Source: Gallionella sp. (lineage in GTDB: Bacteria; Pseudomonadota; Gammaproteobacteria; Burkholderiales; Gallionellaceae). Taken from it: a stretch of DNA of 41,103 nt. The stretch is from assembly GCA_025350705.1 (NCBI GenBank), contig JANXXH010000037.1, positions 1 through 41,103 of the forward strand, in the 5' to 3' direction. Made by a program: the position numbers and the translations under genes. Positions 1 to 32,048 of the stretch are shown here, in pieces. Numbering within the stretch: the first letter of the stretch is position 1; every line of letters begins with the position of its first letter. Under the pieces are notes generated by a model. It worked only from the letters and a program-made list of their open reading frames with translations, searched no databases and had not been told where the DNA came from.

Positions 1-1181
1 CCAAATACAAAGGCGCGCCGCATGAATGCGCGGCTTGCCACCTGAAGGCCGATAAACATAAAGGGCAATATGGCAAGAAATGCGAAACCTGCCATGTGGA
101 AAAAGACTGGAAGAAAATCGATTTCGATCATGACACAAAAACGAAATTCAAACTGCTGGGCAAGCATGAGCTGACAAAGTGCGTAAGTTGCCACAAGACA
201 CCGCTCTACGCCAAGGAGAAAACGCCGACTACGTGTATTGCGTGTCATCGCAAGGATGATGTGCACAAGGGTGCGTTGGGCGATAAATGTGCTACTTGCC
301 ACAACGAAGAAAAATGGAAGTCCGCCAAATTCAACCATGACAAAGACACCAAATTCTTGTTATTGGGCAAACACATCACGACCAAGTGCGAGGCATGTCA
401 TAAACCGGAATTGAAAGTTGCCGCAGAAAAAATTGCCACGACTTGCATGGGTTGTCACAAGAAGGATGATAAACACAAGGGGAGCTTCGGCGCGAAGTGC
501 GAGACATGCCACGCTGAAAAAGATTGGAAGACGATCAGTTTTGATCACACGCGCGATACGAAATATCCATTAAAAGATAAACATGAAAAGGTTAAATGCA
601 TAACCTGCCATACCGGTAATTTGTATCAGCAGAAATTAGCTCAGGATTGTGTTTCCTGTCACAAAAAAGATGATGTGCATAAGGACAAGCTGGGCAAGCG
701 TTGCGAATCCTGCCACAGCGAAAAAGAGTGGAAGAATGCAAAGATCGACCACGGACGCGCACGCTTTCCATTGCTGGGTTTGCATATAAAAGTGGAATGC
801 AAGAAATGCCATCAGACGCAACTCTTTCGCGATGCGCCATCCGATTGCTACTCATGCCATAAAAAGGATGATGACAAGGTGCATAAGCGCAGGCTGGGTA
901 AAAAATGCGAGTCATGCCATAACGCGCGATCATGGAAATCCTGGGATTTCGACCACGACAAACGTACCGCATTCAAGCTTGATGGAGGCCACAAGAAACC
1001 GGATTGCTATGCTTGCCACAAAAAGGCAGTGGATGTCCGCTTTTTGATTCCGCGCTCTTGTGTCGGTTGCCACGAGGAGGATGACGTGCACTTGGGCCGG
1101 TTCGGCCAGCTATGCGAACGTTGTCATGTCACCACTGATTTCAAAACACTACTCATAGGTTCAGGGACAAAGAATCGTTGA
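1..1181 (+). CDS. Multihaem c-type cytochrome, 5' end missing
   Basis: The reading frame is open from base 3 to a TGA/TAG-type stop at 1181 and runs off the left edge, so the start and signal peptide are not visible; the GTG at 96 is internal. The fragment holds 17 CXXCH haem-binding motifs, two of them before base 96. It is built from a tandem module of 68-70 residues, marked by tryptophan codons at 108, 315, 525, 729 and 933. Each module carries three CXXCH motifs, an FDHD-type segment with a distal His, a GKH box and a KKDDVHKG-type box. It is very rich in lysine. c-type cytochromes with such dense haem chains act as periplasmic or extracellular electron wires. With the next two genes it suggests an outer-membrane electron conduit. 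The family assignment is firm; the exact role and cell side are inferred. Confidence 0.93.
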   Translation, partial: KYKGAPHECAACHLKADKHKGQYGKKCETCHVEKDWKKIDFDHDTKTKFKLLGKHELTKCVSCHKTPLYAKEKTPTTCIACHRKDDVHKGALGDKCATCHNEEKWKSAKFNHDKDTKFLLLGKHITTKCEACHKPELKVAAEKIATTCMGCHKKDDKHKGSFGAKCETCHAEKDWKTISFDHTRDTKYPLKDKHEKVKCITCHTGNLYQQKLAQDCVSCHKKDDVHKDKLGKRCESCHSEKEWKNAKIDHGRARFPLLGLHIKVECKKCHQTQLFRDAPSDCYSCHKKDDDKVHKRRLGKKCESCHNARSWKSWDFDHDKRTAFKLDGGHKKPDCYACHKKAVDVRFLIPRSCVGCHEEDDVHLGRFGQLCERCHVTTDFKTLLIGSGTKNR

Positions 1182-1216
1182 TAGATCATCTCAATTTATC
1201 AATAGTTTATCGATTA

Positions 1217-1235
1217 TGTGTGTAAATTACACACA
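1217..1235. promoter_or_regulatory. 19-bp perfect palindrome, candidate operator
   Basis: TGTGTGTAA, a single A, then TTACACACA: a perfect 9-bp inverted repeat with a 1-base centre. It sits between the two cytochrome genes, 154 bases before the second start. The one-base centre and the lack of a T run argue against a transcription terminator. It looks like a binding site for a dimeric regulator, but no regulator is identified. Confidence 0.4.
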
Positions 1236-1388
1236 CGATGGGTGTTTTGTGTTAATCTGCAAATGTTAAATTTAAAAATTGGGGTTATTTAGAGGGTTCA
1301 AATATTTTTCCGTTGAATCGGAAGCGTGGCTAGATGGAGTGCTTTGCCGGATTTTACGGAAGCACGAAAGATTTGAAGGAGCAACAAA

Positions 1389-2327
1389 ATGAACAAATTT
1401 AAAATTGAGACCCAATCTGTATCCGATGTCACTAATTCGCTGCGGGGAATCGGGCTGTTGTTTATGTTGTCGTTGCTGGCCTTGATGCCTATTGCATTGG
1501 CTCAGGCAGCTGAGGTCGGCTCCGCAAAGTTTAACCATATCAAGACAGGATTTAATCTGGCCGGTCCTCATGCCTTGGCTCCGTGTGATTCTTGCCATGT
1601 CCAAGGCGTGTTCAAGGGAACGCCAAGGGATTGTGCAAGTTGCCACAGCGTTGGCAACCGTATGGGAGCAACGGCAAAACCTAATACCCATATTTCCACC
1701 GTAGCTCCATGCGACAGCTGTCACAGATATACAACCTGGACGCCGGCGACGTTCAGTCACGTGGGTGTGGCACCGGGTGCTTGCATGACTTGTCATAACG
1801 GCTCGACGGCGACAGGCAAACCAAACGGACATATTTTCACCTCGGCATCTTGCGATGGCTGCCACCGTACTGCGGCATGGTTACCGGCGGGTTATGACCA
1901 CAAGGGTGTGCTGCCGGGTACTTGTACAACCTGCCATGGGATATCTGCGACAGGCGTTCCGAGCGGGCACTTGGGCGGTATGGCTCCTGGACAATGCGAC
2001 GGTTGCCACACTACCAAAGCTTGGGTGCCGGCAAGCTATGACCATAAGGGCGTGGTAGCGGGCACTTGCGCGACTTGCCACAACGGCATCACGGCGAAAG
2101 GTGTGGGCGGTGTACCTACAACTCAGCACCCGTCATACTCAGGCCATGTGCCTACGACTTTTTGGACTTCATGTGATATCTGCCATAAGTCATTTACAAG
2201 TTTCGCCAATGCCAAAGTGCATGGTTCGGGTGCATCTGTTACAGGAAAATGCAATACCTGTCACAGTGAGCACAACAATTCACAATCGTGCGATAACTGC
2301 CACTCCACAAGCACTTGGAATAAATAA
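1389..2327 (+). CDS. Secreted undecahaem c-type cytochrome
   Basis: 312 residues with 11 CXXCH motifs. The N-terminus has a hydrophobic stretch (about residues 23-40) ending in an AQA-A signal peptidase I site near residue 41, so the protein is exported. The ATG at 1389 has a good ribosome site (GAAGGA, about 7 bases upstream). The middle consists of a repeating unit of about 40 residues with paired motifs (CDSCH/CDGCH then CMTCH/CTTCH/CATCH), separated by W-x-PA-x-(F/Y)-x-H and GxxPGxC segments. The haem spacing differs from the preceding cytochrome, so the two are not recent copies. It lies between that cytochrome and a beta-barrel gene, as expected for the periplasmic or surface partner of a porin-cytochrome complex. 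Which side of the outer membrane it occupies cannot be read from sequence. Confidence 0.92.
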   Translation: MNKFKIETQSVSDVTNSLRGIGLLFMLSLLALMPIALAQAAEVGSAKFNHIKTGFNLAGPHALAPCDSCHVQGVFKGTPRDCASCHSVGNRMGATAKPNTHISTVAPCDSCHRYTTWTPATFSHVGVAPGACMTCHNGSTATGKPNGHIFTSASCDGCHRTAAWLPAGYDHKGVLPGTCTTCHGISATGVPSGHLGGMAPGQCDGCHTTKAWVPASYDHKGVVAGTCATCHNGITAKGVGGVPTTQHPSYSGHVPTTFWTSCDICHKSFTSFANAKVHGSGASVTGKCNTCHSEHNNSQSCDNCHSTSTWNK

Positions 2328-2446
2328 TGAGATCGGCAGATTTACCTCTAGGGGTCTTGTAAGCTACGCGCATTGCGCCTCGATAGGGTTTCCCAGCGTA
2401 TGTTTCGTTGGGTGCGGCTGTTGCGGCATTGAAAAAAGGAAGAAGA

Positions 2447-4597
2447 TTGAAGGCCCGTAGAGCGTTGCAAGTCATACTGAATATCACCGGCTCATTCATT
2501 CGTTTGTTCGTTGTCTTGTTGTTGAGCGGAGTTGGTATGGAGTCGGCTTATGCACATGTGATCGATCGCATCGAGATCAATCACGTCGGTGATGAGGCAG
2601 AGATCCAGATCATTTTCGATGTGAGGATTCAATATCTGCGCGAGGCATCGCTTAACAATGGTCAGGTGCATCTTTTCTTTGGCCTCCTGGAGGCTGACCC
2701 GGATCGGACCTTCATGGTTCCGGAGTCCATGGATTCACCGCCATCGGATATCGCGCCGCATTTCACCATCAGTTATCCCGAACTCGATTCGTCGCTTGCC
2801 ATCAAGTTCGATCAGCAAGTGAAATATCGTGTTCGACCCGGCAATGACGGGCGCAGCATCAGCGTTTATATTCCCGCCCTCAAGCCGAAGATCGAACTCC
2901 CCGCCGCACTATCCTCAACTATGCGTACACAGGAGGAAATCGAGTTGGAGGCAAAGCAATTGATCGATAATGCGCGTGATGCGATGGGTCAAAACCAGTT
3001 CGCAACTTCAATCGAAGCTTTGAATAAGTTGCTCAATCTTCCTCCCAACCAGCAATCCCAGCTTGGGCAGAAACTGATAGGCGAGTCGCGCGAGAAGAAC
3101 GGCGAGTTTGCAAAGGCGCGCGTTGAGTACGAGTTATATTTAAAAATCTATCCAGACGCTGCGGATGTCGCGCAGGTGAAAGATCGGCTGGCACATTTGC
3201 CCGCAGAGGCGGACAAGCAGGCAGCACGCGCCGCCCGGAAGAAGGTCATCGATGAGAAAATGATGGTCTATGGCAGCTTCTCACAAAATTACTACAACGG
3301 TGTATTGCGACTGGATACCAATACCGCAGGCAGCACAACTACGCAAACATGGACTGGCACAGATCAATCGATGCTGGTCTCATCATTGGATTTGACCGGG
3401 CGCAAACGTACCGAGAACGCCGATACGCGCTTGGTGGTGCGAGAATCGTACAATGCGAACTTCCTGCCGGGACAAAACAGCAGCAATCGCCTGAATGCCG
3501 CATATGTGGAGCAAAGTGGGCGAGACCACAGCTACCTGTACCGTTTGGGTCGGCAGATGGGAACGGCGGGTGGCGTGCAGGGGCGTTTTGACGGGGTATG
3601 GTTGGGTTACAGTCTTGCATCCGCCTGGCGTGTCAATGGTGTTGCAGGATCACCGGTGGATATTTATGGCAGCACAGCCGAAAGAAAAACTTTTACCGGC
3701 ATCAGTGTCGATCTTATCCGCGCGCCTGAACAATGGAGCGGCAGCAGTTATCTGATCCAGCAACGCGTTGGCGAAATCACGGATCGTCAAGCTATCGGTT
3801 TGGAAACACATTATTTTGATATACAGCGCAATTACACAGGACTGTTTGATTACGATACCGTATTCAAGGCAGTCAATATCGCGATGTTCCAGGGGAACTG
3901 GACGACGGCATCAGGCGGCAACTACAACCTGCTGGTGGACCATCGGAAAACGCCATCATTGCAGATCACTAACGCGCTGCCGGGTTATGCGATGCAATCC
4001 ATACCGGCACTGGTTCAATCGGGAGTGTCAATTGAGACCCTGCGAGATGACGCCCAAACGTTAACCGCAATATCCAACCTGCTCATGATCGGGACAACCC
4101 AACCCTATTCCGCACACTGGCGATTGGGCGGCGATTTTCGTATCTTGAATACAACAGGTACTGGGGGGGTGGGTCCGATTGATCCTTTAACGGGATTAAA
4201 CAAAGCTCCGGCGACACAGGGGGCAGGGAATATGTATATATATTCCGCACAAGCGATAGGCAATAATTTGCTGATCGATAACGATATGGGCGTAGCGAGC
4301 GCCAGTTATATCAATGCCCAATCATATAAGGGCCAGTCATTGGCTTACACTCAAAGCGAGATATTGCGGCAATACTGGCGGCTGGATGTTTCGCTACAGC
4401 TATACAACCAGAATGACAATCTGGGTGTTCATCAGGCGCGTATCACTCCCAGTCTGAAGTTGAGCTACCACTTGAACGACTCGGTCAGCTTTGAAAGCGA
4501 GGGAGGGATAGAAAGCACCCATACCGAAAGCGCAACCCAAAGCGACCAAACACAACGCCGGTATTATTACGTTGGTTACCGCTGGGATTTCCGATAG
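2447..4597 (+). CDS. Outer-membrane beta-barrel candidate with TPR-like N-terminus (porin of cytochrome complex)
   Basis: The frame is open from TTG 2408, but TTG 2447 is preferred. It has an AAGGAAG ribosome site a few bases upstream and gives a clean signal peptide ending in SAYA-H near residue 36 (716 residues). After the signal there is a beta-rich domain (about 40-155) and a helical TPR-like segment (about 165-255) with the FAKARVEYELYLKIYPD pattern typical of tetratricopeptide units. The rest (about 270-716) alternates polar and aromatic residues as in a transmembrane beta-barrel and ends in YYYVGYRWDFR. No CXXCH motif is present. Following two multihaem cytochromes, it is best explained as the barrel that lets the haem chain cross the outer membrane, as in PCC or Mtr-type complexes. 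I do not recognise a close Pfam barrel family, so the porin role is inferred. It ends only 3 bases from the convergent folA. Confidence 0.8.
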   Translation: MKARRALQVILNITGSFIRLFVVLLLSGVGMESAYAHVIDRIEINHVGDEAEIQIIFDVRIQYLREASLNNGQVHLFFGLLEADPDRTFMVPESMDSPPSDIAPHFTISYPELDSSLAIKFDQQVKYRVRPGNDGRSISVYIPALKPKIELPAALSSTMRTQEEIELEAKQLIDNARDAMGQNQFATSIEALNKLLNLPPNQQSQLGQKLIGESREKNGEFAKARVEYELYLKIYPDAADVAQVKDRLAHLPAEADKQAARAARKKVIDEKMMVYGSFSQNYYNGVLRLDTNTAGSTTTQTWTGTDQSMLVSSLDLTGRKRTENADTRLVVRESYNANFLPGQNSSNRLNAAYVEQSGRDHSYLYRLGRQMGTAGGVQGRFDGVWLGYSLASAWRVNGVAGSPVDIYGSTAERKTFTGISVDLIRAPEQWSGSSYLIQQRVGEITDRQAIGLETHYFDIQRNYTGLFDYDTVFKAVNIAMFQGNWTTASGGNYNLLVDHRKTPSLQITNALPGYAMQSIPALVQSGVSIETLRDDAQTLTAISNLLMIGTTQPYSAHWRLGGDFRILNTTGTGGVGPIDPLTGLNKAPATQGAGNMYIYSAQAIGNNLLIDNDMGVASASYINAQSYKGQSLAYTQSEILRQYWRLDVSLQLYNQNDNLGVHQARITPSLKLSYHLNDSVSFESEGGIESTHTESATQSDQTQRRYYYVGYRWDFR

Positions 4598-30201: not shown

Positions 30202-30257
30202 CATGCATCTCTTGCGGTAACATTCAATTGCAGCAGCAACAACTTAATGGGGTATCC

Positions 30258-32048
30258 GTGTTAAGTAAGCTCGGTAAATATGAGATCAAGCGCGAACTCG
30301 GGAGGGGTGCAATGGGCATCGTCTACGAGGGTTTCGATCCTTTTATCGAACGTACTGTAGCCATCAAGACTATTCAGAAATCCATGATCGACAAATCCGA
30401 GTCTCAGGAGATACTGGGCCGATTTCGTCGCGAAGCCCAGGCGGCTGGACGCCTCACGCATCCTAATATCGTTTCTGTTTATGAATATGGCGAGGATGGC
30501 GATGTGGCATTCATCGCCATGGAGTTCATCGTTGGCATAGAGTTGAAAGAGCACTTCGACAAGACGATACGATTCCAAATAAGTGACAGTGCAAAAATCA
30601 TGACCCAGCTTCTTGATGCGCTTGAATATTCGCACGCCCGCGGGGTGGTGCACCGGGATATAAAACCCTCGAATATCCTGATCACCACAGACGGACAAGT
30701 GAAGATCGCGGATTTCGGGATAGCAAAGATCGAATCCTCCGAGCTTACGCAAGTCGGAACCGTGCTGGGTACGCCCTCTTACATGTCGCCGGAACAATTC
30801 ATGGGGCAAGCCGCGGATCGCCGCAGCGATATTTACTCTGCGGGTGTCATCCTCTATCAGTTCCTCACCGGAGAGCGGCCATTCACCGGCAGCAATATGA
30901 CCATGATCATGCATAAAGTCATGAATCAGGCGCCTATTCCTCCGGTTGAATTCAATCCCGACATACCGGAAGCGCTGCAAGAAGTGGTAAAGAAGGCCAT
31001 GTCCAAGCAACCGGAAGATCGCTTTCAAACGGCGGCTGAGTTTATGAAAGCGCTAAAGCTTGCGGTGGAGTCCTCGGCATCTGCGTCCCAAACGTCTTAT
31101 TCGGAAGCGACGAAAACTTCAAGGCCAGCGCAAAGTCCGCAGAAAAATGGAATCGGCCAAAACTCGATCATCGATTTCAATATGGCGGATTTTGATGCGC
31201 GCCTGAAAGTGTCGCAGCAAGAGGCAGACCACAAATCTGCAATGCCGAACTTTGAGAATCAACCGGATAATTCATTGCGGGAAATCAATCAGGAGTTCCT
31301 TCGATTGAGTCCATCTCAACAGAACGAGATAACGGCAATTACAAACCCGGCGTCCGCATTGCCAAAATCCATGCAGAAATCGCCTTCAGCAACGGGCGGG
31401 TCAGGCCTGCTTGCCGGGTTGGCAAAAGAAGCGAAAGAGAGAATAGGTTCCAAGCAGTCTACATTGCAGGAAAGCCAGGCCAATGCCCAGCGCGTAGACG
31501 GTGCGTTAAACAGGATCGTTCAATTTTTACATCCATTTATTCAGCACGTGAACGATGTAGAGCCGACGATAAACCGAACCTATCGTTTCGATGCGCGGAC
31601 TGTCTACTCCAACCTGAAGTGGCGCGATGCTACCATTGAGAGCCGCAAGCAGAGCCTTTCTGATGCGGCGCTTACGGATCATGTCATATTCAGCGTTAAT
31701 TTGTGCGCACCAGAGCCCGTGTTGCTTAAACGGCCTTGGGGGCCACTCGAAACATTAAAGAAGGAGCTGCATCATTTGAGGTTGCGCATGATTGACGATA
31801 TGGAAGCAGTCAACAAGAAGCCGAAGCAAGAGTGGCTCGAGGCGCAGTTAGCCGCTGACTTTCCGGTACAGATCAAGTTCCAGGGTAACTATAACGAGAG
31901 CAATATCGATGTGATGTGTCGCAACATGGGCACTTTCGGAGTTGCTGTCTATCAACTCGATCCAGACGATGTAACTCCAGCGTTCCTTGATGATATTGGC
32001 CTGTTTCTTCTCGGGCGCACGAATAAGTTACCGCCGCAACTGCGGTGA
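30258..32048 (+). CDS. Soluble Ser/Thr protein kinase with uncharacterised C-terminal half
   Basis: 596 residues from GTG 30258 (a GGGGTA site lies just upstream; a TTG at 30228 is the farthest in-frame start). An intact Hanks-type kinase domain fills about 7-270: GRGAMGIVYEG loop, VAIK lysine near 36, HRDIKPSN near 132, DFGIAK near 152 and SYMSPEQF. A low-complexity Ser/Gln/Asn linker follows (about 275-410). The last 175 residues form a folded-looking domain with TYRFDARTVYSNLKW, LKRPWGPLETLKKELHHL and a FQGNYNESNIDVMCRN segment that I do not recognise. There is no membrane helix and no PASTA domain, so it is not a wall sensor. The tyrS/rpsU neighbours do not reveal the target. Confidence 0.93.
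   Translation: MLSKLGKYEIKRELGRGAMGIVYEGFDPFIERTVAIKTIQKSMIDKSESQEILGRFRREAQAAGRLTHPNIVSVYEYGEDGDVAFIAMEFIVGIELKEHFDKTIRFQISDSAKIMTQLLDALEYSHARGVVHRDIKPSNILITTDGQVKIADFGIAKIESSELTQVGTVLGTPSYMSPEQFMGQAADRRSDIYSAGVILYQFLTGERPFTGSNMTMIMHKVMNQAPIPPVEFNPDIPEALQEVVKKAMSKQPEDRFQTAAEFMKALKLAVESSASASQTSYSEATKTSRPAQSPQKNGIGQNSIIDFNMADFDARLKVSQQEADHKSAMPNFENQPDNSLREINQEFLRLSPSQQNEITAITNPASALPKSMQKSPSATGGSGLLAGLAKEAKERIGSKQSTLQESQANAQRVDGALNRIVQFLHPFIQHVNDVEPTINRTYRFDARTVYSNLKWRDATIESRKQSLSDAALTDHVIFSVNLCAPEPVLLKRPWGPLETLKKELHHLRLRMIDDMEAVNKKPKQEWLEAQLAADFPVQIKFQGNYNESNIDVMCRNMGTFGVAVYQLDPDDVTPAFLDDIGLFLLGRTNKLPPQLR

Follow-up and report, generated by a model that had tools for sequence, protein, structure and literature searches.

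We analyzed a 41,103-nucleotide stretch of DNA from Gallionella sp. (assembly GCA_025350705.1, contig JANXXH010000037.1), referred to below as the window. It is an entire contig (C6) of its genome (G000), whose assembly comprises 2.69 Mb in 161 contigs and is 87% complete. Three genes at the left end of the window, all on the same strand, encode a partial cytochrome with 17 CXXCH motifs, a secreted cytochrome with 11, and an exported barrel protein, as the initial annotation of this DNA had reported and as we confirmed (Table 1). Convergent folA (DHFR) and thyA genes come after the barrel gene. The 5′ part of the locus is missing owing to an assembly break, base 1 being a contig edge. As judged from sequence, the locus is nearly certainly the 3′ part of a porin-cytochrome c complex 3 (PCC3) electron conduit and a new member of PCC3.

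TABLE 1 PCC3 features in the window. pLDDT, predicted local distance difference test score of AlphaFold2; residue numbers refer to the 716-aa form of the barrel protein.
Feature	Position	Strand	Remarks
Periplasmic-type PCC3 multiheme cytochrome, 3′ part	3-1181	+	392 aa, 17 CXXCH, open at contig edge; Cytochrome_C7 E 4.5e-23
Extracellular-type PCC3 multiheme cytochrome	1389-2327	+	312 aa, 11 CXXCH, signal-peptide-like N terminus
PCC3 outer membrane barrel protein	2408-4597	+	729 aa from first TTG; 716 aa from 2447; export-type N terminus
Predicted N-terminal beta-sandwich-like domain, expected periplasmic	2561-2875	+	residues 39-143 of 716; AlphaFold2, block pLDDT 45-87; no Pfam match
Predicted TPR-like helical domain	2930-3193	+	residues 162-249; block pLDDT 88-94; weak TPR matches below Pfam cutoffs
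Predicted 22-strand beta-barrel	3260-4594	+	residues 272-716; pLDDT by ten-residue block, 83-98 for most and 68-78 for three
Three-helix insert between predicted strands 13 and 14	3965-4060	+	residues 507-538; AlphaFold2 model

The window locus and its complete orthologs

The CXXCH motifs of the two cytochromes are not due to chance, since composition-preserving shuffles (2,000 per protein) gave far lower counts, with means of 0.24 (maximum, 3) for the partial cytochrome and 0.11 (maximum, 2) for the secreted one. Motif spacing in the former is regular, at about 18, 18, and 33 residues; in the latter, 7 of the 10 gaps measure 23 to 26 residues.

A barrel match was found in 13 of 61 genomes, a set made up of the window's own genome, 36 of the same genus, and 24 of the same order. 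Named loci (L numbers) are the best 80 of 109 confirmed loci, fetched with the barrel alignment; several are the same contigs as loci with G numbers, and the two sets were not summed. The labels among the 80 include Gallionella, Sideroxydans, Nitrosomonadales, Methylotenera, Rhodocyclaceae, Nitrospira, and Burkholderiales. The closest complete loci are L022, with a barrel 66% identical to that of the window, and L023 (62 to 63%). Their gene order is an inner membrane protein (IMP), a cytochrome with 24 (L022) or 21 (L023) hemes, a cytochrome with 15 or 11, and the barrel; the IMP is also present in the close relatives L043 and L044.

This layout is that of PCC3 as described by He 2017 (PMC5566968) and Hoover 2023; in Sideroxydans lithotrophicus ES-1, PCC3 is encoded by Slit_0867-0870 and Slit_1446-1449 (PMC5566968). 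Shared with PCC3 in that description are the barrel, extracellular and periplasmic multiheme cytochromes, high heme counts, and gene content and order, and the IMPs of the orthologous loci have the two WX3HX13H motifs and the SGXXG motif (PMC5566968). In the window, the barrel gene lies in the cluster, with the 11-CXXCH cytochrome gene adjoining it. A PCC3 periplasmic cytochrome would be expected to have about 21 to 27 hemes; the window part holds 17, and alignment with L022, L023, and L043 indicates that it is short by about 200 N-terminal residues. Judged by the 24-heme ortholog in L022 (that in L043 also has 24), about 7 of about 24 hemes are absent. The PCC3 IMP, with five transmembrane (TM) helices, SGXXG, and two WX3HX13H, would be expected upstream, which here is beyond the contig edge. 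The window copy differs from the published systems in being cut at that edge, in the partner protein that we add for the family below, and in that its likeness to ES-1 is one of layout, not of direct alignment; the matches listed, including those of a search with a Sideroxydans barrel, contained none with an ES-1 or Leptothrix name.

We counted hemes in the named loci using only open reading frames (ORFs) uncut by locus ends, assigned by a position rule that we set. Periplasmic-type cytochromes have 17 to 27 CXXCH (median, 24; 31 intact IMP-adjacent ORFs), and extracellular-type cytochromes have 6 to 106 (median, 16; 50 intact ORFs). The secreted cytochrome of the window would be placed outside the cell. 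At L120:1377-9746 (+), an extracellular-type ORF adjoining a PCC3 barrel has 106 CXXCH in 2,789 residues; the largest count known to He 2017 was 85 (PMC5566968). Other very heme-rich ORFs have 74 CXXCH (L101) and 75 (L082, on the strand opposite to the barrel). L111 and L094 have an additional multiheme cytochrome gene, making three in all, between the IMP and the barrel.

AlphaFold2 models the barrel protein as a 22-strand outer membrane barrel (mean pLDDT, 85). The initial annotation had guessed that the geometry differs from that of a ten-heme wire in a 26-strand barrel, and the predicted 22 strands and periplasmic domain agree with that guess; it had also noted that a nonporous or inner membrane protein would speak against a conduit, and the model, of good confidence, is of an outer membrane barrel. 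By strand parity, the three-helix insert is possibly on the outer side, as a lid or docking site. Foldseek searches with the model returned large outer membrane barrels generally (TonB receptors, CymA, Occ porins, FimD, and AlgE). MtrB, which has 26 strands, was not among the matches listed, an absence that proves nothing. Pfam, which contains an MtrB/PioB model, gave only weak TPR matches to the barrel protein (E up to 1). The window locus shares with MtrCAB and MtoAB the combination of a barrel with periplasmic (and extracellular) multiheme cytochromes; it differs in having about 24 rather than 10 hemes, a predicted 22 rather than 26 strands, and predicted periplasmic sandwich and TPR-like domains. 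The best scores of the window cytochromes and of the whole own genome against the DmsE/MtrA family TIGR03508 were 17.8 to 19.5 bits versus a cutoff of 192.2, and no MtoA/MtrA was found above cutoff in this 87% complete genome.

Paralogs of the PCC3 barrel, 42 to 50% identical and with no large cytochrome adjoining, occur at L025/L068, L026/L099, L054, and L057. A response-regulator-like gene and a histidine-kinase-like gene lie downstream of them (the regulator was checked with Pfam for L025 only), and small exported proteins with 1 to 3 CXXCH are encoded upstream. These barrels are possibly a variant for extracellular redox sensing or signaling.

A flavoprotein partner of the inner membrane protein

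In most complete loci, the gene for a flavoprotein partner (FP) lies upstream of the IMP gene on the opposite strand. FP is about 430 residues long (419 to 503 as called) and combines a single TM helix at the N terminus with a double ferredoxin-type domain and an FAD/NAD(P) domain of the TrxR/YpdA-like kind (Fer4 plus Pyr_redox). In 32 of 32 sequences, there are more Lys and Arg residues after the helix than before it, which places the enzyme domain in the cytosol; FP is probably a membrane-anchored, cytosolic protein. The N-terminal domain does not have the two full CXXCXXCXXXCP motifs of a 2[4Fe-4S] ferredoxin. The motifs read C-x5-C-x3-CP and C-x2-H-x2-C-x3-CP (alignment A4, positions 60 to 100 of the first row), with the second Cys replaced by S, A, or G (24, 7, and 1 sequences) in motif I and by His in all 32 in motif II. 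Because of these replacements, [3Fe-4S] or His-ligated clusters are possible; ferredoxins with unusual motifs are known. The flavoprotein domain matches TIGR04018 (E, 2.2e-45) and PDB 7a76 (E, 4.8e-25) and is shared with YpdA/Bdr and thioredoxin-reductase-like ferredoxin-NADP reductases. At 154.9 bits, FP falls well short of the YpdA cutoff (339.9 bits), and it differs from YpdA in adding the TM helix and the double ferredoxin-type domain. An FP labeled Sideroxydans lithotrophicus (P0223, on a 3.00-Mb contig) and one labeled Sideroxyarcus emersonii have the same odd motifs.

FP and IMP follow the barrel from genome to genome. Among the 61 genomes, FP was present in 12, all within the 13 that have the barrel; the one barrel genome without FP (G031) is 66% complete. 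Strong IMP matches (E ≤ 1e-49) were in the same 12, and seven more genomes had weak matches only. In a sample of 399 genomes of the order, FP was in 21 (13 of 158 genera), IMP was in the same 21, and the barrel was in 22, these 21 plus G205. FP and IMP are divergent neighbors in 19 of the 21, with matched stretches 139 to 904 bp apart; in G297, both are in a same-strand cluster with the barrel, and in G355, they are on different contigs. G250 also has the pair, although about 320 kb separate it from the barrel. Among 299 genomes of the phylum, FP was in 4, two of which were already in the order sample. The new ones are G476, with FP in a stretch with the barrel and a 12-CXXCH ORF, and G578, with FP, IMP, and two 24-CXXCH ORFs and no barrel in the stretch fetched. 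The IMP is present in 35 of the 80 named loci, with FP adjoining in 30; the genomes of the other 5 have an FP match elsewhere, which in the genome of L045 is without the N-terminal part. These locus counts of FP and IMP rest on three-seed profiles. Another 45 named loci have no IMP in the stretch, 35 of them with less than 6 kb upstream of the barrel. FP belongs to a large family (at least 8,000 candidate relatives at E ≤ 1e-60 in the protein database), and its genome-level specificity holds at the genome-search thresholds used.

Genes of the ccm type were also found within PCC3 loci. In L062, L072, and L074, they are downstream of the barrel, with a Ccm series (CcmB, C-like, E, F, H, and I-like) directly 3′ of it in L074; others are at L092:12251-13528 and L133:9823-14016. 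In 3 of 74 loci, the barrel has a CcmA-like ORF as its neighbor. On a Nitrospira contig, a CcmI-like gene lies between the barrel and FP, and in G578, CcmF, CcmH, and a CcmI-like TPR protein are encoded between FP and IMP.

Four His residues (H124, H138, H309, and H323), W305, S161, G162, and G165 are in 35 of 35 aligned IMPs, and W120 is in 33; the IMP thus has two strictly conserved HX13H pairs and SGXXG, and its four His residues form two conserved pairs on two TM helices, as in NADPH oxidases (NOX) and ferric reductases. The mean numbers of Lys plus Arg per segment, from N to C terminus, are 4.7, 0.7, 3.9, 0.7, 19.9, and 0.1, a pattern that indicates an N-in, C-out topology with a cytosolic loop of about 127 residues. 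The histidine pairs would then stack one heme near each membrane face. The pair of proteins would share with the NADPH oxidase/ferric reductase (FRD) domain two HX13H pairs on TM3 and TM5, an analogy drawn in part by He 2017, and a cytosolic reductase partner; it would differ in that the reductase is a separate protein with iron-sulfur clusters. Pfam gave no FRD match. PCC4 and the porin-less cytochrome/IMP pairs described by He 2017 likewise have an IMP with two HX13H pairs and a further redox protein in the cluster; according to He 2017, the IMPs are not homologous overall, and PCC4 is described there as being without an extracellular cytochrome.

The FP and IMP genes were invisible to the initial annotation because the contig begins within the cytochrome gene. 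A DNA search of the own genome with the orthologous L022 locus matched C51, the window contig, and C56. C51, which carries a decarboxylase gene with dcd adjoining, is plausibly the upstream neighbor of the window, by synteny only. C56 carries FP and part of an IMP, with purA and a HisZ-like gene adjoining FP. C25 carries a second barrel fragment, which an RNase R-like gene adjoins. C56 and C25 are probably the two sides of a second, broken PCC3 copy (C56:250-2605, beside purA; C25:10368-11873, beside the RNase R-like gene), and C56 was on this reading not taken as the upstream continuation of the window. The heme-repeat genes may be what caused the assembly breaks. Elsewhere in the window, an ORF at 30228-32048, near dnaG and a sigma-70 gene, is Ser/Thr protein kinase-like (Pfam).

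The main texts of He 2017, Hoover 2023, and the paper on strain CL21 (PMC12442390) mention no flavoprotein or pyridine nucleotide enzyme, and our literature searches found no paper describing FP for PCC3. With respect to that literature, FP as a PCC3 partner is new, as are the data on its PCC3-specific co-occurrence, topology, and Fe-S motifs. The general idea of coupling a porin-cytochrome complex (PCC) to a reductase is partly in print, and we claim no priority for it: in the Sterkfontein ghost-rock metagenome, a ferredoxin-NADP+ reductase gene lies near 7 of 11 group-1 PCCs, with "potential functional coupling" (PMC13264449, 2026). Those PCCs share with PCC3 a nearby reductase and a porin of about 20 strands; they differ in having large decaheme cytochromes (4 to 5 kbp) and are not named PCC3, and their reductase is comparable to FP by description only. 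The section on group-1 PCCs gives no genome-wide co-occurrence or IMP pairing. The same paper suggests that most of the metagenome-assembled genomes with PCCs, being from heterotrophs, may export electrons.

Direction of electron flow

FP, held by its one helix and facing the cytosol, would take electrons from NAD(P)H and hand them through its Fe-S clusters to two b hemes of the IMP, so that the two proteins would act like an NADPH oxidase or ferric reductase divided in two. The 21- to 27-heme cytochrome, which the barrel's periplasmic sandwich and TPR-like domains could hold, would take the electrons across the periplasm, and the 22-strand barrel would pass them on to the extracellular cytochrome. 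The potential of NAD(P)H is about −0.32 V, and that of Fe(II) is roughly 0 V at neutral pH. If FP oxidizes NAD(P)H, flow from there through the IMP hemes to the outside runs down the redox gradient with the help of the membrane potential, which favors the outward direction, whereas taking electrons from Fe(II) to NAD(P)+ by the same route is uphill in redox and against the membrane potential, which disfavors the inward one. A tight pairing of FP with IMP therefore points to outward flow, barring some different function of FP. From these considerations we infer both the direction and the electron donor. That an FP-IMP reductase feeds the PCC3 conduit and that electrons flow outward, for extracellular reduction or electron disposal, is to us the more likely reading, with about an even chance of being correct. 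More tentative, and short of an even chance, is the stricter proposal that PCC3 is not an iron oxidase and is an NAD(P)H-driven, quinone-independent extracellular reductase of five proteins with a split, NOX-like heme b protein.

Several results weigh against an outward-directed FP-IMP reductase. The recovery of upstream sequence that the initial annotation had proposed, run on the own genome, did not find the FP and IMP of the window copy; the only FP-IMP pair in G000, on C56, seemingly belongs to the other broken PCC3 copy, and on that assignment those of the window copy are still unrecovered. G205, which is 85% complete, has a barrel without FP and IMP (1 of 22 barrel genomes), and 10 named loci (of 80) show no IMP in the stretch even though it extends 6 kb or more upstream of the barrel (L054, L068, L082, L092, L099, L101, L105, L107, L118, and L120). 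The association of FP with the barrel in the 399 genomes has a Fisher P value of 4.6e-34, which ignores kinship. A fold search with the IMP model (pLDDT, 78; Foldseek/VIA) gave no informative match, mostly generic helical bundles, so the likeness to ferric reductases and NOX rests on motifs (He 2017). We came across no PCC3 protein that has been tested biochemically. The position of FP beside ccm genes in some loci fits a different role, and one expression result from CL21 fits inward flow; both are taken up below.

Inward flow would make PCC3 a conduit for electrons from Fe(II) or other extracellular donors, with the IMP feeding the quinone pool and FP serving an accessory or low-potential function. 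The first description of PCC3 was from iron oxidizers (He 2017, PMC5566968), and it is complete in 26 Gallionellaceae iron-oxidizer genomes and partial in 11 more (Hoover 2023); in the set studied by He 2017, by contrast, only a few iron-oxidizer genomes had it (PMC5566968). The expression data that we examined go against such a role in ES-1 and are mixed in CL21. In CL21, the IMP gene of PCC3 copy 2 is significantly up in iron-oxidizing cells, and copy 1 falls, not significantly (PMC12442390). In ES-1, expression of both PCC3 clusters is lower on Fe(II) than on thiosulfate (PMC8788666). A magnetite proteome table for that strain gives 0 in each of its eight columns for the extracellular cytochrome Slit_1448; the other PCC3 proteins listed are at percentiles 0 to 63, and of the other cluster only the porin is listed. 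Relatives of the barrel occur in contigs labeled Methylotenera, Nitrospira, Rhodocyclaceae, Lysobacter, and others, and inward flow does not account for FP being constantly present. We consider it unlikely, though the least so of the alternatives. The initial annotation had proposed a PCC3-like conduit for Fe(II) oxidation: the PCC3 part stands on the gene order, heme counts, and IMP of the complete orthologous loci, and the Fe(II) part is not supported by the expression data, while the conserved FP favors outward flow.

FP and IMP could also act outside the conduit, bringing reductant across the inner membrane for the assembly of the very heme-rich cytochromes (to keep heme iron or apocytochrome thiols in the reduced state). 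The ccm genes that adjoin some loci (those of Nitrospira, G578, and L074, and the CcmA-like ORFs beside the barrel) favor such a maturation role, against which stand the tracking of the PCC3 barrel by FP and IMP at the genome level and the absence of a thioredoxin-reductase-type CXXC pair from the three FP sequences checked; we judge it improbable. Less probable still is that the barrel serves chiefly to export the extracellular cytochrome or a polymer and that no electrons pass through it. The TPR-plus-barrel layout does resemble that of the polysaccharide exporters BcsC and PgaA, AlgE and FimD were among the Foldseek matches, and the orphan barrel paralogs have no large cytochrome. The PCC3 barrel, however, repeatedly adjoins multiheme cytochromes and co-occurs with a b-type IMP.

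Implications for PCC3 as a marker

The main value of these results is the fifth component, FP, and its bearing on direction. FP suggests a link from PCC3 to NAD(P)H inside the cell, a concrete prediction that reduces the question of direction to a simple test: NAD(P)H either reduces the chain or does not. Sideroxydans lithotrophicus and Sideroxyarcus emersonii are cultured species, and the FPs labeled with their names make the test feasible. Genome surveys count PCC3 as a putative iron oxidation pathway. If flow is outward, taking PCC3 in metagenomes as evidence of iron oxidation would be wrong, and iron oxidizers, methylotrophs, and Nitrospira (by label) would share a quinone-independent means of electron disposal.

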